Assembly (NCBI RefSeq): GCF_019798055.1
Contig: NZ_JAHOPH010000015.1
Span: forward strand, 1 to 64,000
Direction of reading: 5' to 3'
Origin: Salsipaludibacter albus
GTDB lineage: Bacteria; Actinomycetota; Nitriliruptoria; Nitriliruptorales; Nitriliruptoraceae
Length of the DNA: 64,000 bases
Positions 14,000 through 37,355 of this stretch are shown one piece after another; the first letter of the stretch is position 1, and each line of letters starts with the position of its first letter. The notes below the pieces were generated by a model that saw only the letters and a program-made list of their open reading frames with translations, made no database searches and was not told where the DNA came from. The translations under genes and the position numbers were made by a program.

Positions 14000-14007
14000 G
14001 CCCCCGG

Positions 14008-14013: not shown

Positions 14014-14035
14014 GCTCCCACCCTCCCCCACCCCC

Positions 14036-14311: not shown

Positions 14312-14317
14312 TACGAT
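14312..14317 (+). promoter_or_regulatory. -10 box of lipA
   Basis: TACGAT, 36 nt before the GTG start, with GAGGAG as ribosome-binding site 5 nt before the start. Confidence 0.45.
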
Positions 14318-14352
14318 CGAGGGACCGCAACTCCGAGTTCCGAGGAGTCACC

Positions 14353-15378: not shown

Positions 15379-15394
15379 GGCCAGGGGGTTCGGC

Positions 15395-16195: not shown

Positions 16196-16274
16196 CGGAC
16201 CCCCTAGGTTCGACGGCGCGAACGGGCCCGACCCGTGCGTCGGTGCCGTGTTCGGACCCGGACCAGGAGCAACG

Positions 16275-18311
16275 ATGGCCACCCCCGACGACGACCTGCA
16301 CGACCGGATGGCACGACGAGCCACCGAGACGGGGCTGCTGGTCGCGGCCGCCGCCCTGCCGGCCACCTTCCAGCGCACGCTGACCAGTCGCAGCAACCTC
16401 GACCAGGCCCTGGTCACCGGACTCACCGTCACGATCGGCCAGGGGCTGGTCTCGACCGTCCAGGAGGCGCTGCAGGCACTGTCACGACCGACCACCGGGA
16501 CCACCGGCGACGACACCCGTGACTGGCACCGGCGGGTGCTGGGGGCGGACGCGCTGGCCGTGCTGGCCGGGCTCGGGCTCGAGCACTGGCTGGACGAGCG
16601 TGACGGCGAGACCCTGTGGCGTGCGACCGCGCGAACGACCGGCTGGCTGCTCAAGATCACCGGGACCGCCGGGCTCGCGGCGGGCGCCGTGCACAGTGCC
16701 GCCGGCACGGCCGAGGGCGACGACGACACGGCGGCGCGCGCCGGCCTGGTCGTGCTCGCCGGCGCCCTGGCCGCCGCACGGGAGCTGGATCGCCGGCGCC
16801 ACGAACGGCTCGACGAGGGACGCGACCTCGACGTCGAGGAGGCATCGGTGTCGGTCGGGCGGTCCCTGGCCATGGGCGTCGGCGTGACGGTCGGCGCCAC
16901 CGGCCTGGCACGGGCCGAGGGCTGGATCAGCGAGCAGGTGGCCGGCCTCCTGGGGTCGGTGCTTCCCGGTGGACGCGAGACGTGGCGTCCGGTCGGCCAC
17001 CTCGCGTCGGTGGGCCTGTTGCTGGCCGGGGCACGGGCGGCAGCCCAGCCGGTCTTCCGGTCGCTGGAGGGGACCAACACCCGGTTCGAGGCCGCCCTGG
17101 ACGTGGCACCGTGGCGTCCGGAGGTCTCCGGTTCGCCGGACAGCACCATCCCGTACGACACCATGGGCCGCATGGGTCGCCGCATGGCCTGGACGGTCCG
17201 GCCTCCGGACGAGATCGAGCGGGTGGTCGGCGAACCGGCCGCGGCCCACCCGGTGCGAATCTACGGTGGGCTGGAGCTTGCACCGACCGTGCAGGAGCGC
17301 GTCGACCGGGTGCTGGACGACCTCGAGCGGGCGGGTGGCCTGGAGCGTCGCTGGCTGATGCTGGTCTCGCCGACCGGGACCGGCTACGCCAACTACGCCG
17401 CACTGGGCGCGCTGGAGTTCCTGACCCGCGGCGACTGTGCCAGCGTCGCCATGCAGTACTCGGCCCGTCCCTCGCCGCTGTCGCTGGACCGGGTCGACGA
17501 GGGTCGCGCGCAGTTCCGTGCGCTCGTCGACACCCTCGGGGAGCGGCTGGAGGGACGCGCGCAGCGACCGACCGTGGTGGTCTTCGGCGAGAGCCTCGGG
17601 GCGTGGACCAGCCAGGACGCCTTCCTGCACCAGGGCACCGACGGCCTGCGGGACGCCCACGTCGACCATGCCCTGTGGATCGGGACGCCGTTCGAGAGCA
17701 AGTGGAAGGACCAGGTGCTGTCCGGCGACCGGCCCGACGTCGACCCGTCACTGCTCGGGGTGTTCAACGACATCGGCGAGTGGGACGCCCAGGACCCCGA
17801 CCGCGCCGCGGACCTGCGCTTCGTGATGCTGACCCACCACGACGACGGGGTGGCCCGCTTCGGGCAGTCCCTGCTCGTCCAGCGGCCCGACTGGCTGGGG
17901 GACCCGGACACCCGTCCCAGCGGGGTGCGTCGCTCCCAGCGCTGGATCCCGGTCACGACCTTCGTGCAGACGCTGGTGGACATGAAGAACGCCGCCCGGG
18001 TCGTCCCGGGGGTGTTCGCCGCACGGGGGCACGACTACCGCGCCGACCTGGCGCCGTTCCTCGCCGCGGTGCTCGACCTGCCGGCGACCTCGGCCCAGCA
18101 GGACGCGATCCGCCGTGCCCTGGAGGCCGAGGAGGCCGTCCGGACCCGCTGGATCGCCGACCACGGGACCATCGGCAACTCCATGGCCGTCCAGTTGGTC
18201 GACCGCATCCGGACCCAGTCCCCCGAGGCCTTCGCCGCCGCCATGGACGACCTGCGGGCCGAGCTGCGCGGCTGGGGCGCGGCATGGGAGGCGGGGACCG
18301 ACCCGGCGTGA
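16275..18311 (+). CDS. Abhydrolase_9-type membrane alpha/beta hydrolase
   Basis: A 678-residue protein with a hydrophobic, several-helix N-terminal half (about 1-290, Abhydrolase_9_N-like) and a C-terminal alpha/beta-hydrolase half (about 300-678). The nucleophile elbow is VVFGESLGAW, and the region AMQYSARPSPLS...GRAQFRALVDTL is conserved in this family. The C-terminal KNAARVVPGVFAARGHDYRADL holds the likely His of the triad. Members are predicted membrane-bound lipases/esterases of actinobacteria with no firm substrate. ATG 16275 has GGAG 5 nt upstream; an in-frame ATG at 16248 lacks one. Confidence 0.82.
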   Translation: MATPDDDLHDRMARRATETGLLVAAAALPATFQRTLTSRSNLDQALVTGLTVTIGQGLVSTVQEALQALSRPTTGTTGDDTRDWHRRVLGADALAVLAGLGLEHWLDERDGETLWRATARTTGWLLKITGTAGLAAGAVHSAAGTAEGDDDTAARAGLVVLAGALAAARELDRRRHERLDEGRDLDVEEASVSVGRSLAMGVGVTVGATGLARAEGWISEQVAGLLGSVLPGGRETWRPVGHLASVGLLLAGARAAAQPVFRSLEGTNTRFEAALDVAPWRPEVSGSPDSTIPYDTMGRMGRRMAWTVRPPDEIERVVGEPAAAHPVRIYGGLELAPTVQERVDRVLDDLERAGGLERRWLMLVSPTGTGYANYAALGALEFLTRGDCASVAMQYSARPSPLSLDRVDEGRAQFRALVDTLGERLEGRAQRPTVVVFGESLGAWTSQDAFLHQGTDGLRDAHVDHALWIGTPFESKWKDQVLSGDRPDVDPSLLGVFNDIGEWDAQDPDRAADLRFVMLTHHDDGVARFGQSLLVQRPDWLGDPDTRPSGVRRSQRWIPVTTFVQTLVDMKNAARVVPGVFAARGHDYRADLAPFLAAVLDLPATSAQQDAIRRALEAEEAVRTRWIADHGTIGNSMAVQLVDRIRTQSPEAFAAAMDDLRAELRGWGAAWEAGTDPA

Positions 18312-18402
18312 CGCCGTCGGCGATGTCCCACCGCCCGACGGGCCGGGACTAGGGTTCGCGGTACACGGCCCCACGACGGGGCCACGACGGACGAGGCGGA
18401 CC

Positions 18403-19059
18403 GTGGACGACGTGGTGGTGGGGATCCTGGCGGTGCTGGTCGGCGCCGCCTTCTGCTTCCGGGGGTACCTGGCGATGCGGGTCATCATCCCGATGTGGGG
18501 TGCGCTGGTCGGGTTCTTCCTGGGCGCCGGCCTGGTGGCCAGTTTCACCGACGGCGGCTTCCTGGCCACGACCACGGCCTGGCTGGTGGGGGTCGGCGTG
18601 GCGTTGCTGTTCGGTGTCCTGGCATACCTGTACTACGAGTTCTCGGTCGTGTTGAGCATGGCCGCGATCGGCTGGGTCCTGGGCACGACCGTGCTGGTCG
18701 CGCTGGGCGTGACCTGGACGTGGGTGATCATCCTGGGTGGCGTCGCCGCCGGCGCCCTGCTGGGGTTCGTGGCGATCGCGGCCGACCTGCCGATGGCGCT
18801 GCTGACGATCCTGACCGCCTTCGGGGGTGCCACCGTCGTGACGACCGGCGTGATGCTCCTGGTCGGGACCCTCGACGTCGAGCAACTGGGCCAGGGCGCC
18901 ACGACGGTGGCCATGGAGACGTCCGCCTGGTGGGTGGTGCTGTACTTCGGCCTCGCGATCGCCGGGATCGTCATCCAGCTGCGCGACGTCGACCGGCGCC
19001 GCGCCGGACTGCGCTCCGCCTGGGAAGGCGACGGCGGTCGCAGCATGCGGGCCGTCTAG
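18403..19059 (+). CDS. Polytopic membrane protein (DUF4203-like), unknown function
   Basis: A 218-residue protein with about six to seven membrane helices in quick succession and short Gly-rich turns, ending in a charged tail DVDRRRAGLRSAWEGDGG. It resembles the DUF4203/TMEM198-type fold, for which no biochemical role is established. Start is GTG 18403 with GAGG 6 nt upstream; the frame is open further back but overlaps the preceding gene. Its TAG stop shares the CTAG tetranucleotide with the stop of the convergent mscS gene. Confidence 0.7.
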   Translation: MDDVVVGILAVLVGAAFCFRGYLAMRVIIPMWGALVGFFLGAGLVASFTDGGFLATTTAWLVGVGVALLFGVLAYLYYEFSVVLSMAAIGWVLGTTVLVALGVTWTWVIILGGVAAGALLGFVAIAADLPMALLTILTAFGGATVVTTGVMLLVGTLDVEQLGQGATTVAMETSAWWVVLYFGLAIAGIVIQLRDVDRRRAGLRSAWEGDGGRSMRAV

Positions 19060-20114
19060 GCGTCCCCGTCGGCACCCGGCGCGCCGGTGGCGAGCTGGCC
19101 GTCACCGCCGTCGCGGAAGACCTGCCCGTCACCCCGGATCCACAGTTCGCGCTGGGGGAACGGGATCGAGATGTCGTTGGCGTCCAGGGCGAGCTTGATC
19201 CGCTGGCGCATCTCCCGGGCCACCGTCCACTGCTCGCCCGGCAGGGTCTTGATCGAGGTGCGGATCACGACCGCGTCCGCCCCGAGGGTCTCCACGCCCA
19301 GGATCTCCGGATCCTCGAGCACGACCTGGTCGAAGTCGGGGTCGACCGACATTTCGTGGGCGACCTGGCCGATCACCTCGCGCGCGTGGGCGACGTCGGT
19401 GTCGTAGGCCACGCCGATGTCGAGCACCGCGCGGGCCCAGTCCTGGGACATGTTCCCGACCCGCTGGATTTGGCCGTTCGGGACGTGCCACAGCGTCCCG
19501 TCCACGGCCCGCAGCGAGGTCGTCCGCAGGGAGATCGACTCCACGACGCCGGTGGCCTCGCCGACGTCGATGACGTCGCCGATGCCGAACTGGTCCTCGG
19601 CCAGCATGAACAGGCCGGTCAGGAAGTCCTGCACCAACGACTGGGCCCCGAAGCCCAGCGCGACGCCGATGATCCCGGCACTGGCCACCAACGGCCCGAG
19701 GTTGATGTTGAACGCACCAAGGGCGATCATCACCCCGATGGTCCACACGAGCACCGTGACGATGCTCGACACCACCGCGACCAGGGACTCGACCCGGCGG
19801 GCCCGGCGCGGATCGGGCGGGCCGGTGCGCAGTCCCGGGGTGAGGTCGGTGATCCGACTGGGTCGGTCCCCGCCAGCGACCAGCCGGCGGCCGATCCGGC
19901 GGACGGCGAAGCGGGCGATCAGGCTGACGACGAAGGTCACGACCAGGACGGCGAACGCCTGGGTCAACGGGGCCACGATCCCCCCGGCCAGCCCTGCGAG
20001 TGCATCGGAGCCGGTGGTCTCCAGCACCCAGTCGCACACGGCGTTGGGCTGGTCCTCACACAGGCCGGTCGGCTGCTCGGTCGCCGACTGGGCGAGGACG
20101 ACGAGGGCGTTCAC
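19056..20114 (-). CDS. Small-conductance mechanosensitive channel (MscS family)
   Basis: A 352-residue channel protein of the MscS family that opens on membrane stretch to release solutes after hypo-osmotic shock. Three hydrophobic helices precede the pore-lining segment GIIGVALGFGAQSLVQDFLTG, followed by the beta domain (DQFGIGDVIDVGEATGVVESI, LRTTSLRAVDGTLWHVPNG) and the alpha/beta C-terminal domain. Length is between MscS (286) and YbdG. GTG 20114 is the best available start. It lies downstream of the sigma-factor/small-protein pair on the same strand (124-bp gap) and could be co-transcribed, linking it to that regulator. Confidence 0.92.
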   Translation of the reverse strand: MNALVVLAQSATEQPTGLCEDQPNAVCDWVLETTGSDALAGLAGGIVAPLTQAFAVLVVTFVVSLIARFAVRRIGRRLVAGGDRPSRITDLTPGLRTGPPDPRRARRVESLVAVVSSIVTVLVWTIGVMIALGAFNINLGPLVASAGIIGVALGFGAQSLVQDFLTGLFMLAEDQFGIGDVIDVGEATGVVESISLRTTSLRAVDGTLWHVPNGQIQRVGNMSQDWARAVLDIGVAYDTDVAHAREVIGQVAHEMSVDPDFDQVVLEDPEILGVETLGADAVVIRTSIKTLPGEQWTVAREMRQRIKLALDANDISIPFPQRELWIRGDGQVFRDGGDGQLATGAPGADGDA

Positions 20115-20238: not shown

Positions 20239-20754
20239 CTACAGCTGGAACACCGGGGTGACCACGGCCGGGCCGTCGCCGTCCACGGTGGCGACCACGA
20301 GCTGGACCATGCTGGCCGGCACGTCGTCGAAGACGAACCGCCCGTCGTCCCCGACGCGCTGGCGCCGCGGCGTGTCCGGCAGGCGCAGCGTCACGTCGAC
20401 CTCGCCCCCGCCGGTCAACCAGCCGTCGACCCGGAAGCGGTCGCGACCCACCTCGGTCACCGCGACCGTGACGGTCACCGACGCCGCCGCGAAGGTCATC
20501 GTCAGGGAGCGGTCGGTCGTGGCACTGCGGACCCCGGCCAGGTCTCCGTCCCGGTCGGTCGAGGTCTGGAGGAGGTGCGCCACCTCGACCTCGACCTCCT
20601 CCAGTGCCACGGCGAAGCGGGCACGGTCGACCAGCCCCGCCGGGACCGGGTCCAGCCGGTCCGCGAGCCGGGCCAGGCCGGCCAGGAGTCGCTCGTCGTG
20701 GTCGTCGATCGGTCCGTCGGGGCCGCCGTCGTCGGGTGGGATCGGGGCGTCCAT
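20239..20754 (-). CDS. Small sigma-coupled protein, alpha N-terminus and beta C-terminus (copy A)
   Basis: A 171-residue cytosolic protein. The N-terminal part (about 20-75) is helical and contains LDPVPAGLVDRARFAVALEE; the C-terminal part (about 85-171) is beta-rich (TMTFAAASVTVTV, FRVDGWLTGGGEVDVTLRLP, FVFDDVPASMVQLVV), like carboxypeptidase-regulatory or Ig-like sandwiches. Its ATG overlaps the ECF sigma stop by one base (TGATG), so the two are translationally coupled. That position is typical for an anti-sigma factor, but no zinc-binding HxxxCxxC motif or membrane helix is present. It is clearly paralogous to the 171-residue protein at 26413-26928, which heads a protease unit. Role unknown; regulator, adaptor or substrate are all open. 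Confidence 0.75.
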   Translation of the reverse strand: MDAPIPPDDGGPDGPIDDHDERLLAGLARLADRLDPVPAGLVDRARFAVALEEVEVEVAHLLQTSTDRDGDLAGVRSATTDRSLTMTFAAASVTVTVAVTEVGRDRFRVDGWLTGGGEVDVTLRLPDTPRRQRVGDDGRFVFDDVPASMVQLVVATVDGDGPAVVTPVFQL

Positions 20755-21362
20755 CAGCTCGTCTCCCACGTCGGGTCGTCGGCCAGGAGCGTGCGCAGCT
20801 TGGCCAGGCAGCGACCACGGGTCGGCCCGATGCTGCCGATCGGCATGCCGAGTGCCTCGGAGATGCTGGCGTAGTCCGGGCGGTCCGCGAAGGCGATGAC
20901 CCGCAGCAGGGTCCGGCACCGCTCGGGCAGGGACTGGACGTGGGCCCACAGCCGCTCGGCCTCGTCCTCCAGCTCGACGGCCTCGTCCGGTCCCCGGGTC
21001 GGGGTGGCCGTGGCGACCCAGTCGACCTCGTCCGGGTCGCGGTGCCCGACGGTCTGGCCGAGGTCGTCACTGCGGACCGGCCGGTCACGCCGGGTCGCAC
21101 GCCACGCGTCGCGCTTGGCCGTCGTGACCAACCACGACACGACCGCGCGTGGCTCCTCGATCGCGTCGGCGCGACGCACCAGGGCCAGCCAGGCCCGCTG
21201 GATCACGTCCTCGGCGGCGGTGGAGGACAGCCCCTGGGACCGCACCACGTGCCACAGCAGCGGTGTCACCTCCCCGACGAGGTCGTCGAACCCCGAACGG
21301 TCCCCCTCCAGGTACCGACGGAAGCACCGCTCGGCGCGATCCGTGAGTGTCGCGGTCGTCAT
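20754..21362 (-). CDS. ECF-type RNA polymerase sigma factor
   Basis: A 202-residue sigma-70 family factor with region 2 (about 25-65: FDDLVGEVTPLLWHVVRSQGL, EDVIQRAWLALVRR) and region 4 (about 140-192: LPERCRTLLRVIAFADRPDYASISEALGM...TRGRCLAKLR). The segment MPIGSIGPTRGRCLAKLR is typical of actinobacterial ECF factors found with CHAT proteases. ATG 21362 has GGGG 5 nt upstream. A TAGGCT -10 box 115-120 nt upstream suggests a housekeeping promoter. The gene follows the CHAT-1 terminator and is the most 3' regulatory element of the protease island; whether it transcribes the island is inference. Confidence 0.92.
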   Translation of the reverse strand: MTTATLTDRAERCFRRYLEGDRSGFDDLVGEVTPLLWHVVRSQGLSSTAAEDVIQRAWLALVRRADAIEEPRAVVSWLVTTAKRDAWRATRRDRPVRSDDLGQTVGHRDPDEVDWVATATPTRGPDEAVELEDEAERLWAHVQSLPERCRTLLRVIAFADRPDYASISEALGMPIGSIGPTRGRCLAKLRTLLADDPTWETS

Positions 21363-21476
21363 CCCTGCCCCAACGTGGTCGGATGGTGCGCCCGGTCGTG
21401 GTCCGTCGGCATCCGTTCGCGGCTCCTGGGTTTCGCGTTCCGCGTCCGGGCCTCGATGGCCACGCGCACGTCGTCC

Positions 21477-21482
21477 AGCCTA
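21477..21482 (-). promoter_or_regulatory. -10 box upstream of the sigma factor
   Basis: TAGGCT on the minus strand, giving a leader of about 108 nt. The rest of the 454-bp interval 21363-21816 holds the terminator at 21674-21722 and no credible gene. Confidence 0.35.
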
Positions 21483-21673
21483 GACACGTCGCGCCCGTGG
21501 CCGGACGACGTGGGGCGCCGTCACGAGTGGGAGCACGAACTGCAGGACCGTGATACCACCACCCCGCGTCGTGCGTCCAGCGCACGTACCGGGGGCCTCG
21601 CGTATCAGGGGACGACCCCTCCGCCTCCCGTGTGTCGACCGGCGGCCCGGGTGCGAGCCCGACGCCACCGGAT

Positions 21674-21722
21674 CCGGTGCCCGGTCGCTGCTGTCGGGGG
21701 ACGAGCAGCGGCCGGGCACCGG
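21674..21722 (-). terminator. Terminator of the S8/CHAT operon
   Basis: A 19-bp stem (arms 21674-21692 and 21704-21722, one G-U wobble) with an 11-nt loop begins 95 bases after the CHAT-1 stop, separating it from the sigma-factor gene. No T-tract follows. Confidence 0.75.
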
Positions 21723-21816
21723 CACCATCGCGGCGGGGGCTCCCACGGGGCAGGGCAGGCCCCCGCCGACACCTCCCACGCCCGCCACCGCGTCCCGGCC
21801 GATGCCCGGACCGTCC

Positions 21817-24420
21817 TCAGCCGACCAGGGGACGAAGTCCGGCCCCCAGGCACCCGAACGGCGCGAGCTCGCCAGCGCCCGCCGCATCGGCGACGGCCAT
21901 CGCCAGCGCCTCCGCCGGACCGAGCCCGGCCACCAGGCCCTCGTGCACGGCGATCATGACGTCGTGTGCGGTCTCGTCGCGCACCCGGGCGAGCCCCGCG
22001 AGCACGGTCGGCACCCCCGCCTGCAACAGGGCGGCCGTGAGTCCCAGTGGCTCGTCACCCCGCCGGACCGTGTGCGAGCCGACCTCGCAGCTGGACAGCA
22101 CCACCAGGCGGGCCCGGGGGTCCGGCTCCAGCTCGTGGGCGAAGATCGGGCCGTCGTGGAGTCGCAACGAGGAGAACAGCGGTGACGCGGCCTGGTGGTG
22201 GCCATGGGTGGCCAGGTGCACCACGTCGGCCTCGCGCAGCCCCCGGCGCACGACCGCGCCGGTGGCATCCGCACCCTGCGCGACCCAGCCCGACCCCCAG
22301 GCCTCCGCCACGGCGACGGCCTCGGCCACGGAACGGTCCAGTCCGGGCCCCGCGACGGCCATCACCCCGGCCCCCGAGGCCGACGCGGCCCGCCCACGAA
22401 GCCGGTCCCACATGGTCAGGCTCGGGACCATGGTCGAGGCGAGTCCGAGCCGACTGGGCACGAGCGACCACGGCACCAGCGCCAGCGCCCCGTGGGGAAC
22501 CAGCACCAGGGGGGACGGGCCCACCTCCAGCGGGCGCAGCAGCCGGGCGTCCAGTCGTTGCAGCGTCGCGTCGACCGAGCGACGCATCACGCTGCGGACG
22601 GCCTCGGGGACCCCGGACAGGACGACCGCCTGGAGGTCGGAGCGCACCTGCTCGACGTCGCGCACGGCCGTGGCGAGGTCGCCGAGCTCGACGACGGTGA
22701 CGTCTCGCTGGTCGATGCGGACCGCGAGGAGGCGCGACCCGACACTGGTGTAGGACACCGCCACGGCCCCGCTGGGGGCGAGGTGTGCCCGGACGGTGGC
22801 GAGGTCGGCCAGCCCGACGTCGGACCGCACCCCGCTGCGCTGCCACTCCCGGTGGCGCAGGTCGTGCTGGAGCCGCGTGATCTCCCGCCGCAGCCGCCGG
22901 TCGTGCTCGGGGTCGCCACCCTCGTCGCGTCGCCACAGGGCGTCGTTGGCACGGCGCAGTCGGGCGAGCTGCTCACGCTCCCGTGCGGTCGCGCTGGGAC
23001 GGACCGGGGCGATCCGCGTCGACGAGGCGTGCGATCGCTCGACGGCCCCGTGCACGACCTCCGGATCGTCACGTCCGACGGCGTCGGCGACCCCGATCTC
23101 GGCCAGCTCACGACCGTGGATCGCCATCGCCGTGCGCAGGTCGACCGAGCCGAGTCGTGCCTGAGCCCGTCCGAGCTCGACCAGCCCGTCCTCGACGATC
23201 TGCTGGAGGTCGGCGTCGCCCCGCGCGGCGGCCAACCCTGCGCGGGCGCGATACCAGCGCAGGCGCACGCTGACCGCGGCGTCCTCGGCGGCTCGCCCGT
23301 CCAGGGCACGGGCCGCCCGGTCCGGGTCACCGGCGACGAGCGCCGCCTCGGCCAGCATGAACCAGGCCGGCAGGCTGATCTCGACGTCGTCGGCGTCGTC
23401 GGCCGCCCGCGCCAGGTCCTCGACCTGGTCGGCCAGGGACGGGTCCGGTGGGATCCCCGTGGGGTCCGACGGTGCCAGGCCGGCCACCTCCGACTGGGCC
23501 TGCTCGAGCCGGACCGCCAGCCGGACGAACGCCGCCCGCCGCGCCCAGCGCGCGTTGCGGCGACCCACGAACAGGCCTGCTGCCCGCTCGGTCTGCTCCG
23601 CCGCGAGGTCGAGGTCCCCGCTGGCGAGGGCGCCCCGGGCACGCAGCAGGTGGGCCTCGCCGACGTCCTGGTGGCGCCCCGACCCGGCCATGTCGCCGAT
23701 GGCCTGCTCGAGGAACGCGTCGCCCTCGTCGACCAGGCCCGCCTCCTGCAGGACCCGGGCACGATCCATGCGTGCGATCGGGTCGTCCATCAGCCGCCCG
23801 ACGGCCGGCTCGAGCTCGACGTCGGCCACCCCCCGCGCGAACACGTCCAGCGCACGGGGCAGGTCGCCCTGGATGAAGGCGAGGAATCCCCGGTTGTGCC
23901 GGGCCTTCTGGGCGAGTTCCAGCAGGTCGGCCGCAGCCCCCTCCTCCTCCACCCGGCCCAGGTCGCGACCCGCGGCGTCGAGGTCGCCCACCTCCAACCG
24001 GACGAATCCCCGGTTGAGGAGGAACCGCACCCGATCCTCGGTCGACGCGTCGTCCAGCCAGGGGTCGGCCGTGTCGAAGACCGCCATCGCGGCGTGCACG
24101 TCGCCACCCCGCAGGTGGCAGTACGCCCTCGCCCCCGCGACCGCCACGCGCAGGTCGGCGAGGCCCGCCGCATCGACGATCTGGGCGGCACGGTCCAGCA
24201 GGGGCGACCAGGACTGGTCGACGTCGACCTCGTGTCGCGAGCAGGCGAGGATCGTCAGCGCGCGCACCAGCAGCCGCTGCTCACCGGGATCGTGCGTCGT
24301 GCCGAGCGCGTCGACCACGGGGCGGGCCAGCGTGGCCGCAGCGCCGTAGTCGTGGGCCTCCATCGCCCGCCGCGCCAGTTCGACCCGGCGATCCGGGGTG
24401 AGCCCGGGCGGGGCCGTCAA
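21817..24420 (-). CDS. TPR-CHAT caspase-like protease (CHAT-1)
   Basis: An 867-residue cytosolic protein with TPR-like helical repeats over residues 1 to about 560 and a C-terminal CHAT peptidase domain (about 600-867). The catalytic dyad is present: His739 in HLATHGHH and Cys778 in LSSCEVG. CHAT is the caspase/separase-like fold also used by Csx29. The start is taken as TTG 24420, which overlaps the stop of the S8 gene (TTGA); the first in-frame ATG is 19 codons later but would truncate the first helix relative to paralogue CHAT-2. Last gene of the unit small protein / S8-1 / CHAT-1. No signal peptide or membrane helix. A substrate is not visible; the partner S8 protease or its repeat hinge is an obvious candidate. 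Confidence 0.88.
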   Translation of the reverse strand: MTAPPGLTPDRRVELARRAMEAHDYGAAATLARPVVDALGTTHDPGEQRLLVRALTILACSRHEVDVDQSWSPLLDRAAQIVDAAGLADLRVAVAGARAYCHLRGGDVHAAMAVFDTADPWLDDASTEDRVRFLLNRGFVRLEVGDLDAAGRDLGRVEEEGAAADLLELAQKARHNRGFLAFIQGDLPRALDVFARGVADVELEPAVGRLMDDPIARMDRARVLQEAGLVDEGDAFLEQAIGDMAGSGRHQDVGEAHLLRARGALASGDLDLAAEQTERAAGLFVGRRNARWARRAAFVRLAVRLEQAQSEVAGLAPSDPTGIPPDPSLADQVEDLARAADDADDVEISLPAWFMLAEAALVAGDPDRAARALDGRAAEDAAVSVRLRWYRARAGLAAARGDADLQQIVEDGLVELGRAQARLGSVDLRTAMAIHGRELAEIGVADAVGRDDPEVVHGAVERSHASSTRIAPVRPSATAREREQLARLRRANDALWRRDEGGDPEHDRRLRREITRLQHDLRHREWQRSGVRSDVGLADLATVRAHLAPSGAVAVSYTSVGSRLLAVRIDQRDVTVVELGDLATAVRDVEQVRSDLQAVVLSGVPEAVRSVMRRSVDATLQRLDARLLRPLEVGPSPLVLVPHGALALVPWSLVPSRLGLASTMVPSLTMWDRLRGRAASASGAGVMAVAGPGLDRSVAEAVAVAEAWGSGWVAQGADATGAVVRRGLREADVVHLATHGHHQAASPLFSSLRLHDGPIFAHELEPDPRARLVVLSSCEVGSHTVRRGDEPLGLTAALLQAGVPTVLAGLARVRDETAHDVMIAVHEGLVAGLGPAEALAMAVADAAGAGELAPFGCLGAGLRPLVG

Positions 24421-26360
24421 CCCGCGTCCGCGTCGTCTCGCGTCGCGTCGGGGCGCTCGACGTGCCCGAAGCCCTCCAGGGACACCAGGGCCTTCCACGC
24501 CCGTGCCACGGATCCCGGGACGGACGGGTCGTGCTCGGCGAGCGGGACGTCGTCCGACGCCAGCGCGGCCGCCAGCTCGGCCGCCAGCACCGGTGCGGAG
24601 AACGACGTCCCACTCCACACGGCGAAGCCCCGGTAGTCGTCGGGGTCCAGTGCGGTGCGTCGGGTGCCGAACGCGGTCTCGACCTCGACGTCCGGACTCG
24701 CGCCGGCATCGACCAGCGGGAAGGTCGAGACCAGCGAGACGCCGGCGCGCCAGGCCGTGACCCACGGGCCGTCGTTGCTGAACAGCGCGGACGATCCGTC
24801 GGGGTTCGTCGCGCCCACGGCCACGAGCGGGACCAGGTCACCGTGCAGGGGCAGGGTCGGCTGGCCGTCGTCCACCGGCCCGGTGTCCCCCTGGTCGGTG
24901 TCCGCGGGCGGTTCGCCGTCGGACGGCGCCGGGACCGGTGGGCGTGGCAGCCGCTGTGCCAGGGCACCCGGCCAGCACGGCCGGACGGTGGCGTCGTTGC
25001 CGGCCGAGGCGACGACCGCCACGCCCAGCATGCCGAGCGCGCGCAGTCGCGGCTCCAGCAACTCCGTGAAGGCGGGGTCCTCGGGCCGTTCGTGGTAGTA
25101 GCCCAGCGACAGGCACACGACGTCGACCAGCCCGTCGCGGTGGCCGGTCACGTTGCCACCGTGGCGCGCGACGAGTTGCCGCACGACCAGGGCCGACAGG
25201 ATCCGCAACAGCTCGCCCTCCGGGACGACGCCGTCCGCGCCGTACAACGGCACGCTCACGATCCGGGCGTCGGGGCACTCCTGGCGCACCAGGCCGGCGA
25301 TGAAGGTGCCGTGTCCGGCCTGGGACTCCAGCTGGCGCAGCAGGGGGTCGGACACGAGCGGGTCGTCGACCAGCGCGTGGTCACCCAGCGGCAGCGAGGA
25401 CGACGTCGCGGTGCCGACCCGGGGCAGGCGCTCGACGACGGGCGGGCGGTCGTGCGCGTCGTCGGGGAAATCCCCGAGCCACGGATGCGGCTGGACCGGC
25501 GTGTCGACGATCGCGACGACCGGACCCGGGCGTGACTCGTCGGGCCCGACGGGTGCGGGTCCACGCCAGGTCACCGGCATGCGACCCCCGGCACCCGGCA
25601 CGGCGTACCGGGCGATCGAGGCCCCGAGCGGGTTGCCGGCGCCGAACGCACCGCCAGAGGTGAACGGACCGCCCGAGGTGAATGGACCACCCGAGGTGAA
25701 CGGGCCGCCCGACGTGAACGGACCGCCCGACGTGAACGGACCCCCCGACGTGAACGGACCACCGGACGTGAACGGCTGGCCGGACATGGTCGGCATCCCG
25801 ACCAGGTGGTCCAGCGCCAGGACGAGGTCCTCGTCGGCGTGACGCAGCAGGACCAGTGCCCGCCACGCGTCGGGCGGATCGTCCAGCGGGTGCTCGGTCA
25901 CCAGCCGCAGGTGGACCGTGGTGTCGCAGGCGAGCTCGAGGGCATCCTGCTCGACCGGGGTCAGGGCCATGTCGGCGACGAGCCCGCGCAGGTCCGGCTC
26001 CCGATCGTCCTGCTGGACGCGGAACGACTCGCCGGCGTCGTCCAGGAGCTCGTTGACGTGGGCGACGAGTCGCTGCGGGTCGTGCGGGGCCTCGCAGGTG
26101 CGGTCGCACTCGTGACCCTCGGGGAGGGGCGTGGTCCGGGCCAGGAGCCGATCGGCGCAGTACCGCGTCGGCCGGCAGGCGGCGGCGCCGTGGTCGTCGT
26201 GGCGATGCCGCACGTGCCGGGTCGCCTCCACGGGGTCGAGGTGTCGCGCCGCCCAGCGACGCGCCGCACCGGGTGGAACGCCGACGTCCGGGTCGTGGTC
26301 ACCGGCGGGAAGTCGTTGGTCGGCGGCGTAGTCGGCCGCGCGGTCGTACCTGGGAATCAT
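24417..26360 (-). CDS. Intracellular subtilisin-like serine protease (S8-1) with repeat hinge
   Basis: A 647-residue S8 protease without signal peptide. Catalytic residues: Asp286 (VVAIVDTPV), His350 (GHGTFIAGLV), oxyanion Asn in SAGNDATVRP and Ser586 (SGTSFSAP). The N-terminal 195 residues are unique and include a Cys cluster (C62, C68, C85, C89) with nearby His residues that could bind zinc. Residues 196-237 are seven perfect PFTSGG repeats just before the catalytic domain. ATG 26360 has GAGGGG 6 nt upstream. It overlaps CHAT-1 by 4 bases and follows the small protein by 52 bp. The domain order is shared with S8-2 at 29719-31530, but the N-terminal domain and repeats differ completely. Confidence 0.88.
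   Translation of the reverse strand: MIPRYDRAADYAADQRLPAGDHDPDVGVPPGAARRWAARHLDPVEATRHVRHRHDDHGAAACRPTRYCADRLLARTTPLPEGHECDRTCEAPHDPQRLVAHVNELLDDAGESFRVQQDDREPDLRGLVADMALTPVEQDALELACDTTVHLRLVTEHPLDDPPDAWRALVLLRHADEDLVLALDHLVGMPTMSGQPFTSGGPFTSGGPFTSGGPFTSGGPFTSGGPFTSGGPFTSGGAFGAGNPLGASIARYAVPGAGGRMPVTWRGPAPVGPDESRPGPVVAIVDTPVQPHPWLGDFPDDAHDRPPVVERLPRVGTATSSSLPLGDHALVDDPLVSDPLLRQLESQAGHGTFIAGLVRQECPDARIVSVPLYGADGVVPEGELLRILSALVVRQLVARHGGNVTGHRDGLVDVVCLSLGYYHERPEDPAFTELLEPRLRALGMLGVAVVASAGNDATVRPCWPGALAQRLPRPPVPAPSDGEPPADTDQGDTGPVDDGQPTLPLHGDLVPLVAVGATNPDGSSALFSNDGPWVTAWRAGVSLVSTFPLVDAGASPDVEVETAFGTRRTALDPDDYRGFAVWSGTSFSAPVLAAELAAALASDDVPLAEHDPSVPGSVARAWKALVSLEGFGHVERPDATRDDADAG
25651..25776. 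repeat. Seven 18-bp in-frame repeats inside S8-1
   Basis: Seven units of 18 bp with consensus CCGCCCGACGTGAACGGA on the plus strand encode PFTSGG on the minus strand. Units differ by one to three bases, mostly synonymous, so the protein repeat is perfect while the DNA has drifted, implying selection on the peptide. Confidence 0.95.
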
Positions 26361-26412
26361 GGTCGCCCCTCGTGGTGCGGTCGCCGAGCCCGGGTGCCCG
26401 AGGACGGGCTCG

Positions 26413-26928
26413 TCACAGTTCGACGGCCGGCGTGATCATCGTCGCCCGACCGTCGGGCTCCTCCACCAGCAACTGGACCTGGCCCCGGGGGACCTCATCG
26501 AACCAGAAGCGGCCGCGCTCGGCGGCCGCTCGACGGGTCTCTCCCGGGATGCGCAGGGCGATGACGGCATCGTCCGCGCCGGTCAGCCACCCGTCGATGC
26601 GGACGAGCCGATGGCCGGACGGGGACACCGTGATCGTCATGGACGTGCGCTCGGAGGAGAACGTCATCGTCGCCGTGTCCGTGTCGGCGGCGTCACCCCC
26701 GCGCACGCCGGACCCCGCGAGGAGGTCCTCGCGCTGGATCTCGGCCACCTCGGCGTACACCTCGTCGAGCGCCACCGCGAAGGTGATGCGGCCGACGAGG
26801 CCCGGCGGCACCGGGTCGAGCGTCTCGGCGGCATGTCGGAGGGTGGTCAGGACGTGGGCGTCGACGGTGTCGAGCGGTCCACGTGCGAGCACGGCGGGGT
26901 CGTGTTCCGAGGAGGGCTCGTGGGGCAT
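26413..26928 (-). CDS. Small protein heading the S8-1/CHAT-1 unit (copy B)
   Basis: A 171-residue paralogue of the sigma-coupled protein at 20239-20754. Shared features are the helical N-terminal LDPVPPGLVGRITFAVALDE, then TMTFSSERTSMTITV, RIDGWLTGADDAVIALRIPGETRR and WFDEVPRGQVQLLVEE in a beta-rich C-terminal domain. ATG 26928 has AGGAG upstream. It precedes S8-1 by 52 bp and lies 185 bp after the CHAT-2 stop. Its presence next to both the sigma factor and the proteases makes it the link between regulation and proteolysis in this island. No catalytic motif is visible, and no membrane helix. Confidence 0.75.
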   Translation of the reverse strand: MPHEPSSEHDPAVLARGPLDTVDAHVLTTLRHAAETLDPVPPGLVGRITFAVALDEVYAEVAEIQREDLLAGSGVRGGDAADTDTATMTFSSERTSMTITVSPSGHRLVRIDGWLTGADDAVIALRIPGETRRAAAERGRFWFDEVPRGQVQLLVEEPDGRATMITPAVEL

Positions 26929-27113
26929 CGGTCGCTCCTGGGCGGTCAGGCGGTCGGGCGGTCGTGGCGTCTCAGGTCGTGACGGGGGTCACGGGGCGGG
27001 TCGCGTCGGGTCGGGGCAGGACCGTGACGGACGTCGGGCAGCGGTTGGGAGGCACGATGTCGGCGACTCGATACCTGCGGGGGCCGACTCGTGCGACGAG
27101 CGCACATGACGTG

Positions 27114-29708
27114 TCATGCCGACCGCCTCCGTGTCGTGACGTCCGCCACCGGACCGAGGCCGTTGCCCAGCACCACCATGGGCGCGACACCACCGTCGTC
27201 GCCGGCATCGGCCACCACGCGGCTGACGGCACGGGCCGGGGAGGATCCGCCCGCGAGGTACCGGTGCAGTTCGCTGCCCACGCGCGCCGCCACGTCGTCG
27301 CGGATGGGTGCGACCGCCCCCACCACCACGTCCACCCCCGTGTCGAGCAGTGCTGCGGCGAAGCCAAGCGGCTCGTCGCCCGGACGCATGGCGTGCTCGG
27401 CGACGTCGCACGCCGACAGCACGACCAGGCGCGTGGCGGTCGCCCGTGACAGGTCGTGGGCGTAGAAGGGACCGTCCTCGAGCCGGACCGACGAGAACAG
27501 CGGCGCGGCGGCGTGGTGGACGCCGTGCGCCGCGAGGTGGACCACCTCCGCCTCGGCCAGCGCGGCCCGCAGGTGATCCCCCCGGGCCGCGGTCGCCCGA
27601 CCCGTCGTGCCCCAGGTCGCCGCGACGTCGGCGACCTCGTCGTGCGCCCGGTCGAGGTCCGGGCCGGCGAGGGCCCGGACCACGGGGGCTGACGTCGGGG
27701 GACGCCCGCGGCGACGGACCCAGCGGGTCGCACTGGGCGAGGTCACGGTGCCGGCACCCGCACGACTGGGGAGCAGCGACCACGGGACCAGGGCCAGGTC
27801 GGCGTGGGGCACGACGACGAGGTCGCGGCCGGGTGCGTCGAGCGGCGTCGCCAGCAGGGCGTCCAGGCGGGCCAACCCGTCCCGCAGTGAGTCTCCCACC
27901 ACGCCACGCATCGCAGGGGGCAGGCTGGAGAGGTTGACCACCCGCAGGTCGGCCCGCACCCGCCCGACCGCCCCGAGGATCGGGCCGATCGGACCCAGGC
28001 GGATCGGCGCGGCCTCGCGGGCCGTCACCCGGAGGGCGACCAGGTCGTCACCCGAGCGGACGAACGAGACCGACACGGCGTCCCCACGACCCAGTTCGGC
28101 ACCGAGCTCGTCCAGGGAGACGATCGGGTCGGGACCGTCCTGCGACGCACCACCGGACTGGCGCCAGGCTCGTCGACGCAGGTCCTCGCGCAACCGGCCG
28201 GCCCGGTCACCCCACGCCTCGCGCTGCGACTCGGGGGCCTCGACCTCGCGCCACCGGCGGTCCTCGAGCGCGCGCAGCTCGGCGAGCAGGCGGCGGTCGG
28301 CGTCGGGGAGGTCGGCCCGCACGGGGGTCAGGCGTGACGACGCGGCATGGGCCAGGTCCACCGCACGATGCAGCTCCTCGACGGATCCACGGGCAAGGGC
28401 GGCCTGCACCCCGATGTCGACCAACGGACGTCCGTGCAGCGCCATCGCGGTGCGCAGGTCACGCGAGCCCACCTGCGACTGTGCGTCGGCCAGTGCCGCG
28501 ACCCCCTCCTCGACGACGACCAGCACGTCCGGATCCTCGCGTGCCAGTGCCACGGCCGCCCGGCACAGGTGCCACCGCAGCCGGATGCGTGGCGTGGCCC
28601 AGTCCGGCACCTCGATCGCACGCAGCTCGAGCTCGGCGCTCGCGAGTTCGCCCATGGCACACGCGATGTCGATCGCCAGCAGGCGCGCAACGAGCTCCAC
28701 CTCCGCATCGACCTCGCCGGCCTGGTCGACGAGGTCCAGCGCGCGCCGTCGCAGGGGACGCAGGTCCCGTGACGGCAGCGCGCCGGTGGAGACCCGCTGG
28801 CGCGCGACCTCCACCACGACGAGCTCGGCCCGCCGCCACCACCACGGGTTGTCGGTGGTCGCGAACAGGTCCTCGGCCATGGCGGCGAGCTCGGCCGAAC
28901 GCTCGAGATCACCTGCCACGAGCGCGGCCTCGGCCCGGACCAACGTGACCTCGCCGACGTCTCGTCCGCGCTGTTCACGCTCGAACAGGGCCTGTGCACG
29001 GGCGAGGAGGGCGTCGGCCTCGTCCACCAGCCCGGCCTCGATCAGGACCCGTCCACGATCGAGCAGGCCGATGGGCTCCGGCGTCTCGGTCGTCCCGTCG
29101 TCGTGCTCACCGGCCGTCGCCATGCCGGCGATCGCGCGGGGGAGGTCGCCGTCGAGGGAGGAGAGGTAGGCCAGGTTGTGCCGTGCCTTGTAGGCCGTCC
29201 TGGGCTGCCGGGCACCGGAGGCCTCCGCCACCGCGCGGACGAAGTCGCGCCGCGCCTCGGCCCGGTGGCCCAGCTCCATCCGGAGCACGCCACGGTTCAG
29301 CACCATGGATGCCCGGTGGCTGGGGCTCGTCAGGTGCAGGATCGGCTCGGCCGCGAGGAACGCCTCGAGCGCCTGTTCCATCCGCCCTGCCCGCAGGAGG
29401 AGGATCGCCCGCTGCCCGAGCAGCGCGACCCGCAGGTCGTCTGCATCCGGGGGGAGGAGCGACTCGGCCCGCGTGAGGTGGTCCAGCCCCGGCACCGGAT
29501 CACCCGTGATGTCGGTCTCGGCGAGCGCGAGCCCCAGGAGCGCGCGAACCCGCAGTCGGTCCGTGTCGTCGTGCGACGGAAGGTCGTCGAGCCCGGCCAG
29601 CGCCTGTCGGTAGCAGGTGATGGACGCCGCCGGGGCGCCGTGGTTGACATGCGTGCGCCCGGCTTCGACCAGTTCGGCCATGGCGGCGACCGCGTCGCGC
29701 TCGGTCAC
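27114..29708 (-). CDS. TPR-CHAT caspase-like protease (CHAT-2)
   Basis: An 864-residue paralogue of CHAT-1: TPR-like repeats over about 1-560, then a CHAT domain with His728 in HLAAHGVHH and Cys767 in LSACDVA, both intact. Conserved flanking blocks (PLFSSVRLEDGP, GDEPLGFAAALL) match CHAT-1 closely, while the TPR half is much more divergent, as expected if target recognition has changed. Start is GTG 29708, 10 bp after the S8-2 stop; it gives the same N-terminal length as CHAT-1. The frame remains open upstream but over the S8-2 gene. The 185 bp that follow contain a 6-bp inverted repeat around 27105-27118 next to the stop and a small GTCACG hairpin, without a clear terminator. Confidence 0.87.
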   Translation of the reverse strand: MTERDAVAAMAELVEAGRTHVNHGAPAASITCYRQALAGLDDLPSHDDTDRLRVRALLGLALAETDITGDPVPGLDHLTRAESLLPPDADDLRVALLGQRAILLLRAGRMEQALEAFLAAEPILHLTSPSHRASMVLNRGVLRMELGHRAEARRDFVRAVAEASGARQPRTAYKARHNLAYLSSLDGDLPRAIAGMATAGEHDDGTTETPEPIGLLDRGRVLIEAGLVDEADALLARAQALFEREQRGRDVGEVTLVRAEAALVAGDLERSAELAAMAEDLFATTDNPWWWRRAELVVVEVARQRVSTGALPSRDLRPLRRRALDLVDQAGEVDAEVELVARLLAIDIACAMGELASAELELRAIEVPDWATPRIRLRWHLCRAAVALAREDPDVLVVVEEGVAALADAQSQVGSRDLRTAMALHGRPLVDIGVQAALARGSVEELHRAVDLAHAASSRLTPVRADLPDADRRLLAELRALEDRRWREVEAPESQREAWGDRAGRLREDLRRRAWRQSGGASQDGPDPIVSLDELGAELGRGDAVSVSFVRSGDDLVALRVTAREAAPIRLGPIGPILGAVGRVRADLRVVNLSSLPPAMRGVVGDSLRDGLARLDALLATPLDAPGRDLVVVPHADLALVPWSLLPSRAGAGTVTSPSATRWVRRRGRPPTSAPVVRALAGPDLDRAHDEVADVAATWGTTGRATAARGDHLRAALAEAEVVHLAAHGVHHAAAPLFSSVRLEDGPFYAHDLSRATATRLVVLSACDVAEHAMRPGDEPLGFAAALLDTGVDVVVGAVAPIRDDVAARVGSELHRYLAGGSSPARAVSRVVADAGDDGGVAPMVVLGNGLGPVADVTTRRRSA

Positions 29709-29718
29709 GCCCGGGACA

Positions 29719-31530
29719 TCACGCGGGAGTCGGGTCGCCGTCGACCGCGTCGACGTCGGACGACCGCGGTTCGGTGGGGAGTTCGCCCAGGGCAGCGAGC
29801 GCCACCTTCGCGCGGCTCTCGATGGAGTCACCCGCGCTGGCATGGCCGGCGTCCACGAGCGCCCGGGCCAACTGGCCGGCGAACAGCGGCGTGGCGAAGG
29901 AGGTGCCACTCCAGGTCGCGAACCCGTCCCGGTAGTCGTCCTGGTCGAGGCCACTGCGGTGACCGGGCGACCACAGTCGCTCCAGCTGGGCCCCGGGGTT
30001 GCCGGAGGCGTCGACCCGCGGGAAGGTGCTGACGAGCGACGCGCCGCGCCGCCAGTGGCTGACCCAGCGTGCCTCGTTGCTGAACAGCGCCACGGTCCCG
30101 TCGGGATTGGTGGCGCCGACACACACCATCGGGGCCGACGGTGGCGGGGCCGGCTCGGCGAGCCCGTTGGGTGCCAGGGCTGCAGGCACGCAGGGCCGGA
30201 CCGTCGCGTCGTTGCCCGCCGAGACGACGACCGTGACCCCGGTCGCCTGCAGGGCCCGGATCGCACCCAGCACCTGGGCGGTGTGTTCGACGTCCTCCAG
30301 GGTCTCGTGGTAGTAGCCCAGCGACAGCGAGACGATGTCGATGGGCGGCCGGGCCGGGTCCCCGGACCGCAGGGCATCGTCCTGGCGGATCGCCAGCAGC
30401 AACAGGGCGTCCAGCAGGGCGTGCTCGGCGATGACGCCGTCGACCTCGAACAACGGCACCGACCTGATCCGTGCCGCCGGGCACGCCTGGCGGACCAGGC
30501 CGGCGATGAACGTCCCGTGACCGGCAAGCGTCTCGAGCCCGCGCAGCAGTGGCTCCGACGACGTGGGCGCACTCGCCTGCGCCGAGGCCGACGCGATGCT
30601 GCTGCCGTCCTGCATCGTCACCGCCTCGCCGATCCCGGATCCCTGCAACCATCCGTGCTCGGCGTCCACGGCGGTGTCCATGACCAACACGACCGGACCT
30701 CCCGGGTCCGCGTCGTCCGGCGTCGCCCAGCCCGGACGTGCCACCGGGGCGCGGCCGCCCCGCCCCGGCACGGCGTAGGCGGCCACGCTGGCCCCCGGGG
30801 AGTGGCCGTCGTACATCGGATGGCCGTCGTACATCGGATGCCCGTCGTACATCGGGTGCCCGTCGTACATCGGGTGGAGCGTGACGGCATGGTCGAGGCC
30901 GACGAGCGCCTTGCCGAGTGCCCGTCGACCCACCGGTGGTGACTGGATCCGGGACCGGAGGACCTGGAGGATCGGCCACGCATCGACCGGTGGCAGGACC
31001 ACATCGCCGGACCGGACGGTGATGGCCAGCGGGACCGCCCTGGCGCGCTCGACCAGCGCCCGGACCCTGCGGTCACGGACCCCTTCCACCAGCCCCGCCC
31101 AGTCCCGGGCCTCGCCGTCGGGCCCGGACATCTCGACGGGCTCCACCTCGACCTTGATCCCGGCGTCCGTCGCGAGCTGTTGCTCGACGATCACCCGGAC
31201 CTCGGAGATCACCTCGTCCAGGACCTCGTCGACGCCGTCGCGCCCACGAACCAGGAGGTGGTTGCCGACGTAGCACGTCTCGAAGGGGTCGTCGTCCTGG
31301 GCACCGAACGGCGGGGCGGCGGTCGCCGGGTCGAGCAGCCGGAGCCGCAGGCGTGCGCGTGCCTCCGACGGGATCCGGATGACAGGGGCCCGATCGAGCA
31401 ACGGGACCCTCGATCGGCGCGCACGATCCTGTTTTCCCGGTGGCTGTGGGAGCCGCGCCCCCTCGCGACCGAGGAGCCACCGCAGCTCGTCACGCACGTC
31501 CTTCGGGGAGAGGGGCTCGGAGGCAGTCAT
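29719..31530 (-). CDS. Intracellular subtilisin-like serine protease (S8-2) with repeat hinge
   Basis: A 603-residue S8 protease, paralogous to S8-1 in the catalytic half: Asp285 (VLVMDTAVD), His338 (GHGTFIAGLV), Asn in SAGNDATVRP and Ser544 (SGTSFATP). The N-terminal 210 residues are unrelated to those of S8-1 and lack its Cys cluster. Residues 219-242 are four HPMYDG repeats immediately before the conserved SPGASVAAYAVPG that opens the protease domain. No signal peptide. ATG 31530 is the first gene of the island and lies 150 bp after the amidase stop on the same strand; no clear promoter was recognised there beyond a CCGACG/CGTCGG hairpin. Confidence 0.87.
   Translation of the reverse strand: MTASEPLSPKDVRDELRWLLGREGARLPQPPGKQDRARRSRVPLLDRAPVIRIPSEARARLRLRLLDPATAAPPFGAQDDDPFETCYVGNHLLVRGRDGVDEVLDEVISEVRVIVEQQLATDAGIKVEVEPVEMSGPDGEARDWAGLVEGVRDRRVRALVERARAVPLAITVRSGDVVLPPVDAWPILQVLRSRIQSPPVGRRALGKALVGLDHAVTLHPMYDGHPMYDGHPMYDGHPMYDGHSPGASVAAYAVPGRGGRAPVARPGWATPDDADPGGPVVLVMDTAVDAEHGWLQGSGIGEAVTMQDGSSIASASAQASAPTSSEPLLRGLETLAGHGTFIAGLVRQACPAARIRSVPLFEVDGVIAEHALLDALLLLAIRQDDALRSGDPARPPIDIVSLSLGYYHETLEDVEHTAQVLGAIRALQATGVTVVVSAGNDATVRPCVPAALAPNGLAEPAPPPSAPMVCVGATNPDGTVALFSNEARWVSHWRRGASLVSTFPRVDASGNPGAQLERLWSPGHRSGLDQDDYRDGFATWSGTSFATPLFAGQLARALVDAGHASAGDSIESRAKVALAALGELPTEPRSSDVDAVDGDPTPA
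30803..30874. repeat. Four 18-bp in-frame repeats inside S8-2
   Basis: Four units of TGGCCGTCGTACATCGGA type (two with TGCCCG...GGG) encode the HPMYDG repeat on the minus strand. They occupy the same place in the protein as the 18-bp array of S8-1 but share no sequence with it. Confidence 0.95.
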
Positions 31531-31680
31531 GGAGCGTCCGTGGTGTCGGGGGTTGGGGCCGCGGCCGGCCGCGCGGGCCGAGGCATCGGAGTCGATGGTG
31601 CGACGTCGTGATACGCCGACGGGCGTCGGAGGCCCATCTCGGTCGAGGAGCGCACGTCCCCGTGGACAGGGCGCACGCGG

Positions 31681-37041: not shown

Positions 37042-37335
37042 ATGACCTCCTCCGACGGCCCGCTGCGCGACGACGACATGTCCACCTCCGGTCCCCTGGA
37101 TGCCGACCGCCCGGCCGCCGACGCAGACGGCACCGACGGTGACGCGACCGACGGCGACGCCACCGACGTCAGCGACGGCGACGCTGCCGACGCAGACGGC
37201 ACGGACGGTGACGCCACCGACGTGACCGACGGCGACGCCACCGATGCCGACGGCACGGACGGCGACGCCACCGACGTGACGGACGGCGACGCCTCGGACG
37301 CCGACGGCGCCGACGCGGACGGGACCGACGCCTGA
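37042..37335 (+). CDS. Aspartate-rich repeat protein (97 aa), possible modified peptide
   Basis: A 97-residue protein with 34 aspartates and virtually no hydrophobic residues. After a short leader-like N-terminus (MTSSDGPLRDDDMSTSG) it consists of 18-residue repeats DADGTDGDATDVTDGDAT (54 bp each, about three copies plus partials). It contains DxDG.D loops that resemble calcium-binding motifs, but there is no signal peptide. ATG 37042 has AGGA 7 nt upstream and a -10 box further up. The next genes encode a JmjC/cupin oxygenase and a sucrase-ferredoxin, so it may be their protein substrate; a simple acidic calcium-binding protein is the alternative. Recognised from context, not from a known family. 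Confidence 0.55.
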   Translation: MTSSDGPLRDDDMSTSGPLDADRPAADADGTDGDATDGDATDVSDGDAADADGTDGDATDVTDGDATDADGTDGDATDVTDGDASDADGADADGTDA

Positions 37336-37355
37336 GCCACGTCTCGCTCGACAGC

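Follow-up and report, generated by a model that had tools for sequence, protein, structure and literature searches.

The seven genes of the island

Positions 20239 to 31530 of a 64,000-nucleotide stretch of DNA (referred to here as the window) from the actinobacterium Salsipaludibacter albus (contig NZ_JAHOPH010000015.1, positions 1 to 64,000) hold an island of seven minus-strand genes. These encode an extracytoplasmic function (ECF) sigma factor, two small proteins, two subtilases of the S8 family and two proteins that combine tetratricopeptide (TPR) repeats with a caspase-like CHAT protease domain. All seven genes, recognised in a first-pass annotation made from the sequence, display coding-like high third-position GC, and Pfam and NCBIfam confirm the S8, TPR-CHAT and ECF sigma assignments. 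The gene arrangement is far beyond chance. The seven genes are:

29719..31530, minus strand: S8-1, cytosolic subtilase zymogen (Pfam S8 7.6e-16; triad D285/H338/S544 plus N440; AlphaFold predicted template modelling score (pTM) 0.87)
27114..29708, minus strand: CHAT-1, GTG start, TPR repeats plus CHAT caspase-like protease (Pfam CHAT 1.9e-25; H728/C767)
26413..26928, minus strand: small protein B (smallB), predicted two-helix hairpin plus beta-sandwich (CarboxypepD_reg-like), paralogue of small protein A
24417..26360, minus strand: S8-2, second subtilase zymogen, PFTSGG x7 linker (Pfam S8 4.3e-12; 36% identity to S8-1)
21817..24420, minus strand: CHAT-2, TTG start, or ATG at 24363, TPR repeats plus CHAT protease (Pfam CHAT 4.1e-31)
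20754..21362, minus strand: sigma, ECF-type (sigma70-ECF 7.5e-18; Sigma70_r2 7e-8), ECF54-like by gene context
20239..20754, minus strand: small protein A (smallA), proposed sigma partner or anti-sigma (AlphaFold predicted local distance difference test score (pLDDT) 88)

The S8 domains score 46-59 bits against the PF00082 cut-off of 21.8, and the CHAT domains 90-109 bits against the PF12770 cut-off of 24. The catalytic triad of S8-1 and its oxyanion residue N440 are invariant in 87 relatives, S8-2 displays the same catalytic motifs and the CHAT-1 His/Cys dyad H728/C767 is invariant in nine relatives; the catalytic residues are thus intact, as first proposed. The accompanying proposal that the proteases lack secretion signals agrees with inspection by eye, in which no hydrophobic N-terminal leader is visible, no signal-peptide predictor having been run. 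The sigma factor carries the region-4 signature P[IV]GSIGPTR.RCL in alignment, and the smallA start codon overlaps the sigma stop codon.

Conservation, promoter and duplication of the module

A relative of smallB is present in 10 of 296 actinobacterial genomes, and the 20-kb regions around these relatives contain S8, sigma, small and CHAT in that order and in one direction in three genomes, with rearranged or partial forms in others. A larger collection of 79 named actinobacterial loci was obtained by a single scan of GTDB contigs using an S8 alignment, with sigma, small, S8 and CHAT genes being called using hidden Markov models built for this analysis. The loci were picked on S8 alone and the presence of sigma, small and CHAT therefore constitutes independent evidence. 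Most of the 79 hold all four genes, in the order sigma-small-S8-CHAT or S8-sigma-small-CHAT; sigma adjoins small, with a gap of 60 nucleotides (nt) or less, in 75 of the 75 loci that have both, and CHAT is the last gene in 73 of 73, a consistent linkage across Actinomycetota that the first-pass annotation had suggested should be sought. In a second sample of 396 genomes, in whose selection the module played no part, the small protein is found in 38 genomes and S8 in 18, and each of the 12 S8 genes at E <= 1e-50 has a match to the small protein no more than about 4 kb away. When the neighbours of the loci were clustered, no further gene proved to be conserved alongside the four, the neighbours being local housekeeping genes. 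In several Micrococcales and their relatives (loci L044, L053, L065, L067, L076, L086, L088, L091 and L095), the module is flanked by ribosomal-protein genes (L1, L10, L7/L12 and L11, assigned by eye).

The operons also have a promoter in common. An unsupervised search of upstream regions recovered the sequence GTATCA-N16-CTC in 52 of 77 loci (seven or fewer in shuffles), and the fixed pattern TGTATCA-N16/17-CTCC is found upstream of 63 of 78 operons, where about 1.5 would be expected from its overall density. In the window, the motif precedes all three transcription units, with a fourth copy on the opposite strand:

31588..31614, minus strand: promoter motif GTATCA-N17-CTCC, upstream of S8-1/CHAT-1
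27048..27074, minus strand: promoter motif GTATCG-N17-CTCC, upstream of smallB/S8-2/CHAT-2
21530..21556, minus strand: promoter motif GTATCA-N17-CTCC, upstream of sigma/smallA
21602..21628, plus strand: fourth promoter-motif copy, divergent from the sigma promoter and heading a candidate RNA

The promoters define the units S8-1 to CHAT-1, smallB to S8-2 to CHAT-2, and sigma to smallA. Of the earlier grouping into modules, the pairing of sigma with smallA and of S8-2 with CHAT-2 is retained, whilst smallB, previously placed with S8-1 and CHAT-1, belongs ahead of S8-2 and CHAT-2. A common sigma-type promoter joins the copies in one regulon.

Further copies of the motif lie elsewhere. An exact search of the window's own genome returned 14 matches against none for the reversed pattern, in a set of seven genomes including the window's the motif is in excess in the others too, and across 66 named genomes there are 51 matches against 11 for the control. 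Some of the extra copies stand in front of genes for S8 proteases (L050, L057, L062, L075), a CHAT protein (L153), a trypsin-like protein (L151) and an M23 protein (L143). Many further matches sit inside genes or lead nowhere, and the regulon is therefore best treated as a candidate list. At three loci (L057:15011-17110, L062:14736-16610 and L050:13852-15057) an extra subtilase with its own promoter copy comes right after the operon, and at L060:14985-17174 a 730-residue protein with no Pfam match follows CHAT behind two motif copies.

The fourth promoter copy in the window heads a feature that lies on the opposite strand to CHAT-2:

21640..21775, plus strand: tentative candidate non-coding RNA, long hairpin with GGGGG loop (hairpin z-score -8.1)

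Similar features recur after CHAT genes elsewhere. The motif occurs within 150 nt of the CHAT stop codon in 21 of 70 loci, with 0.3 expected, and the post-CHAT regions that have no clear following gene hold 83 runs of G4 versus 14 of C4 (94% of regions versus 1.9% of controls) and fold into hairpins, many with GGGG loops. Candidate G-loop RNAs follow CHAT in L054, L063, L064, L074, L077, L103 and others. A search of Rfam with the candidate RNA found no match. Covariation is weak: in the Microbacterium set compensatory changes are confined to the terminal hairpin, and the sequences from Nocardioides, three in number, are too alike. For this reason the RNA remains a candidate. The GGGGG loop could pair with the CCUCC anti-Shine-Dalgarno sequence, with one G-U pair, making a link to the ribosome conceivable.

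In the island itself, every component except sigma is duplicated, with paralogue identities of 41% for CHAT-1/CHAT-2, 36% for S8-1/S8-2 and 41% for smallA/smallB. In the CHAT tree, CHAT-1 and CHAT-2 each pair with a different one of the two copies from Nitriliruptorales bacterium LH_M21 (100/100 support), and the window CHATs and both LH_M21 CHATs group together (100/100). As judged from these sequences, the island is a single lineage-specific tandem duplication local to the Nitriliruptorales, the module elsewhere usually being single. The LH_M21 locus (L025) has the order S8-small-CHAT-small-S8-CHAT-sigma-small, in which the small gene between S8 and CHAT is absent from the window. A same-genus genome (G344) has a layout identical to that of L025, with equal scores, and the two are probably the same assembly. 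The window's own genome also has a third, diverged CHAT-sigma-small locus (L024, G000:C15:52906-54929), with no S8 recognised in the stretch examined.

The S8 zymogen and its tandem peptides

The S8 proteins contain short tandem peptides which, together with the shared promoters and the paralogy of smallA and smallB, had been overlooked in the first-pass annotation. The arrays in the window are:

30803..30877, minus strand: S8-1 tandem array MYDGHP x4, 18-bp period, residues 219-243 (synonymous differences per site (pS) 0.44, non-synonymous (pN) 0)
25644..25775, minus strand: S8-2 tandem array PFTSGG x7 (pS 0.44, pN 0)

In the AlphaFold model of S8-1 (mean pLDDT 83, pTM 0.87), a folded domain at approximately residues 54-217 is followed by the array, disordered at residues 223-243, and then by the protease. 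The top Foldseek matches of the model are pro-subtilisins, including unprocessed forms with prodomains, over about 500 columns. No Pfam prodomain model is matched by the S8 relatives, and fold comparison of the predicted structure assigns the prodomain as I9-like. Nearly every S8 protein has this layout, an I9-like prodomain linked to the protease by two to 13 identical peptides of mostly five to seven residues. A scored tandem array is present in 82 of 89 S8 proteins (a count that includes one misplaced detection, in L028), with a unit of six residues in 68, five in nine and seven in three, and lies after a conserved LDH segment and before the catalytic domain.

The units vary by genus (NPFTKS, VPYYAG, HPYTEP, YGDGVG) yet are nearly always identical inside one array. 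Across the 82 arrays pooled, pS is 0.477 and pN 0.007 per site, so that pN is about 1.5% of pS, the pN value being a lower bound since the array detector favours identical peptides. With pS this high between units, the array copies are not fresh duplicates. Tandem 18-bp DNA repeats can arise by slippage, and the range in copy number from two to 13 would suit an origin of the arrays by neutral slippage within a linker that is merely flexible, with no bearing on mechanism, but we consider this extremely improbable given the near absence of non-synonymous change between units that differ at synonymous sites, and given that orthologues in the window and L025 retain paralogue-specific units (HPMYDG/HPLYDG for one pair, PFTSGG/PFTSGG for the other). 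The copies of an array thus change jointly from genus to genus, even as their synonymous sites diverge.

The location of the arrays at the junction of prodomain and protease, taken together with the pro-subtilisin fold matches, places them where subtilisins cut themselves. The classical subtilisin substrate AAPF has proline at P2 and a bulky residue at P1. Of 82 units, 68 contain a proline with a bulky residue or histidine directly after it, and at the level of sequence this suggests that the tandem peptides look like the S8 protease's own cutting site. The unit was also compared with the remaining proteins as a possible shared motif: no 5-mers and a single 4-mer match were found with sigma, small or CHAT, where the null is about 0-2, and the idea of a motif common to the partner proteins was rejected.

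To examine co-variation, between-unit distances were compared with the distances of each protein part by partial Mantel test in 49 loci. The distance between units is significantly correlated with that of the S8 catalytic domain (r 0.244) and with that of the CHAT TPR half (r 0.245), with p 0.0005-0.002, and shows no significant correlation with small, sigma, the prodomain or the CHAT domain. The result survives the removal of L028. The top co-varying S8 columns, 437, 444 and 446, adjoin oxyanion residue N440 and, on sequence alignment with subtilisin (the numbering not being from superposition), would correspond to the S1-pocket segment; the column-level tests are, however, anti-conservative, as the control regions (sigma, small, the prodomain and the CHAT domain) likewise exceeded permutations on the top-ten mean, and we therefore rely on the domain-level result alone.

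Short linear peptides are common ligands of TPR domains, and the tandem peptides might be purely a docking ladder, one that is never cut and that holds S8 to the TPR half of CHAT, the identity of the copies serving avidity; the co-variation of the TPR half with the unit and the predicted disorder of the array are in keeping with this. Against this, co-variation with the unit extends to the S8 catalytic domain, where it is strongest beside the S1 pocket, and the array lies at the canonical autoprocessing junction, so that pure docking appears unlikely, if still worth serious attention.

A bolder and distinctly unlikely proposal is that S8 is a self-processing precursor that releases identical intracellular peptides of five to seven residues, for which the TPR half of the partner CHAT would be the receptor in a diffusible code ending in sigma release. 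Unit length, the identity of every copy and the way in which the unit co-varies with the S8 catalytic domain as well as with the TPR half would fit such a scheme, on which the duplicated island would run two separate peptide codes, insulated from each other, while sharing a single sigma factor. In the RRNPP receptors, TPR domains read short linear peptides of five to seven residues, some of which are cut by subtilases. In the island, by contrast, a single operon encodes the peptide, the protease and the TPR protease, all apparently cytosolic, and the analogy is functional only.

A proposed protease relay and its alternatives

Pfam searches with smallA and smallB, each alone, found no family match, and 27 of 88 relatives of the small protein match PF13620 (CarboxypepD_reg). 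The AlphaFold model of smallA comprises a two-helix hairpin and seven strands, and on this prediction the small protein is a non-catalytic CarboxypepD_reg-like fold lacking a catalytic domain.

The gene context is on record. A published review, citing Casas-Pastor 2021 and Huang 2015 on the ECF54 group, lists carboxypeptidase, subtilase and CHAT domains among the products of the group's conserved neighbours; control by proteolysis, with no anti-sigma factor involved, is proposed there, though not from experiments (PMC8999054). The island shares with ECF54 an actinobacterial ECF sigma factor (sigma2 plus sigma4) beside carboxypeptidase-regulatory, subtilase and CHAT genes, with PF00082 and PF12770 found in the window and PF13620 among the small-protein relatives, and the 'carboxypeptidase' of the published context is the small protein. 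The view of the first-pass annotation that the island could not be matched to a characterised system must therefore be revised. The promoter, peptide repeats, regulon, zymogen architecture and identity of the small protein, all described here for the island, do not feature in that review's account of the group (PMC8999054).

On the published ECF54 reading, the proteases would degrade sigma itself and keep it off, there would be no anti-sigma factor and the small protein would be an adaptor or scaffold. The review's placing of ECF54 among proteolysis-controlled sigma factors lacking an anti-sigma (PMC8999054), the near-constant co-encoding of S8 and CHAT and the failure of Pfam to find a known anti-sigma domain in the small protein are all in its favour. 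Sigma and small are adjacent in all 75 loci with both, however, and sigma-small pairs also occur with no S8 or CHAT nearby (L019, L020), so that small follows sigma and not the proteases. Partial mirror-tree correlation is also higher for sigma-small (0.32) than for sigma and the S8 catalytic domain (-0.06), though that for sigma and the CHAT domain is 0.37. We regard degradation of sigma as an unlikely explanation, albeit one of real standing.

Our preferred reading, held tentatively and at a little below an even chance, is that the island is a duplicated cytosolic protease relay, self-amplifying, that controls an ECF54-like sigma factor via the small protein. The sequences show conserved linkage, a common promoter, the zymogen layout, constraint on the peptides and domain-level co-variation, and the best reading remains the one first envisaged, a signalling cascade inside the cell that works by proteolysis and is governed by an ECF sigma factor. 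We infer that the small protein would hold sigma as an anti-sigma factor or co-regulator, probably through its helical hairpin, whilst the I9-like prodomain would keep S8 off. A signal would arrive at the TPR half of CHAT. The tandem peptides of S8 may be both recognition sites for its own active site, allowing self-cutting of the repeats, and ligands read by the TPR half, so that their cutting or binding would couple S8 and CHAT. One of the proteases would then cleave the small protein and free sigma, which would transcribe the operon again (positive feedback) along with further proteases and the G-loop RNA. In this genome, where the module is duplicated, each S8/CHAT pair would have kept its own peptide code under the single sigma factor.

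A number of observations weigh against the relay. The small protein has no anti-sigma domain recognised by Pfam, and a structure search with it found no match in the PDB at E <= 0.001. Two loci (L032 and L069) have S8-CHAT without a nearby sigma/small pair, some genomes (L019, L020) have sigma-small without nearby S8 or CHAT, and the proline-bulky pair is absent from about a sixth of units. To these should be added the bias of the array detector and the inflated column-level controls already described.

The first-pass annotation also saw a link to Csx29 and to defence or cell death. In a module of this type, activated proteases would kill or arrest the infected cell and sigma would induce more effectors; CHAT and subtilase domains are known in conflict systems, and the candidate regulon has further S8, CHAT and trypsin-like proteins. 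PADLOC 2.0 returned only partial, marginal matches to known anti-phage systems (BovA 17.9 bits, IetS 20.1 bits), however, in the window the island is flanked by genes for an amidase and for an MscS-type channel (19056-20114), and the several Micrococcales copies that lie, by eye, among ribosomal-protein genes argue against a mobile defence island. Nor do the proteins belong with Csx29, scoring 17-19 bits with NCBIfam NF041237 against a cut-off of 300; no CRISPR-like repeat family is found in window positions 1-19000 or 33000-64000, and neither the seven genes of the island nor the two beside it include a Cas gene such as Cas7-11. The link is thus unsupported, as is a defence role, which we hold to be rather improbable. 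Membership of the type VII-secretion mycosins was rejected also (TIGR03921 34-38 bits versus a cut-off of 278.75).

The proposed relay nevertheless bears comparison with several known systems. Its logic is similar to that of the type III-E Craspase (Csx29/Csx30/CASP-sigma; PMC10028731), from which the island differs in that a second, S8 protease is integral to it and in that Csx30 is far longer than the island small protein. The CalpL/CalpT/CalpS type III CRISPR system likewise comprises a cascade of protease, anti-sigma and ECF sigma, but CalpL is a Lon-SAVED protease activated by cyclic oligoadenylate and the system has no S8, CHAT or TPR (PMC11417357). The pro-subtilisins ProN-Tk-SP and pro-Tk-subtilisin (PDB 3afg, 2e1p) share the prodomain-protease zymogen layout, the island S8 proteins being distinguished by the lack of a hydrophobic leader visible by eye and by the tandem peptide array at the processing junction.

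Two other repeat regions lie outside the island: dense short-period repeats with spacings of 15 and 9 nt at window positions 37049-37345, which would be Asp/Gly-rich if coding, and three tandem 72-nt direct repeats at 14033-14248.

The gene context was already known. What appears to be new, in that the literature searched does not describe it, is the zymogen with its peptide code, along with the promoter and the candidate RNA. A sigma-factor group known only by its gene context gains a wiring diagram: it now has a promoter and candidate targets, a partner protein whose fold is predicted, and a zymogen whose linker looks like a built-in tandem cleavage code. If the code is true, it would show how intracellular protease signals can be amplified and insulated without a membrane anti-sigma factor, and would place the TPR-CHAT proteases, best known from CRISPR, in ordinary actinobacterial regulation.

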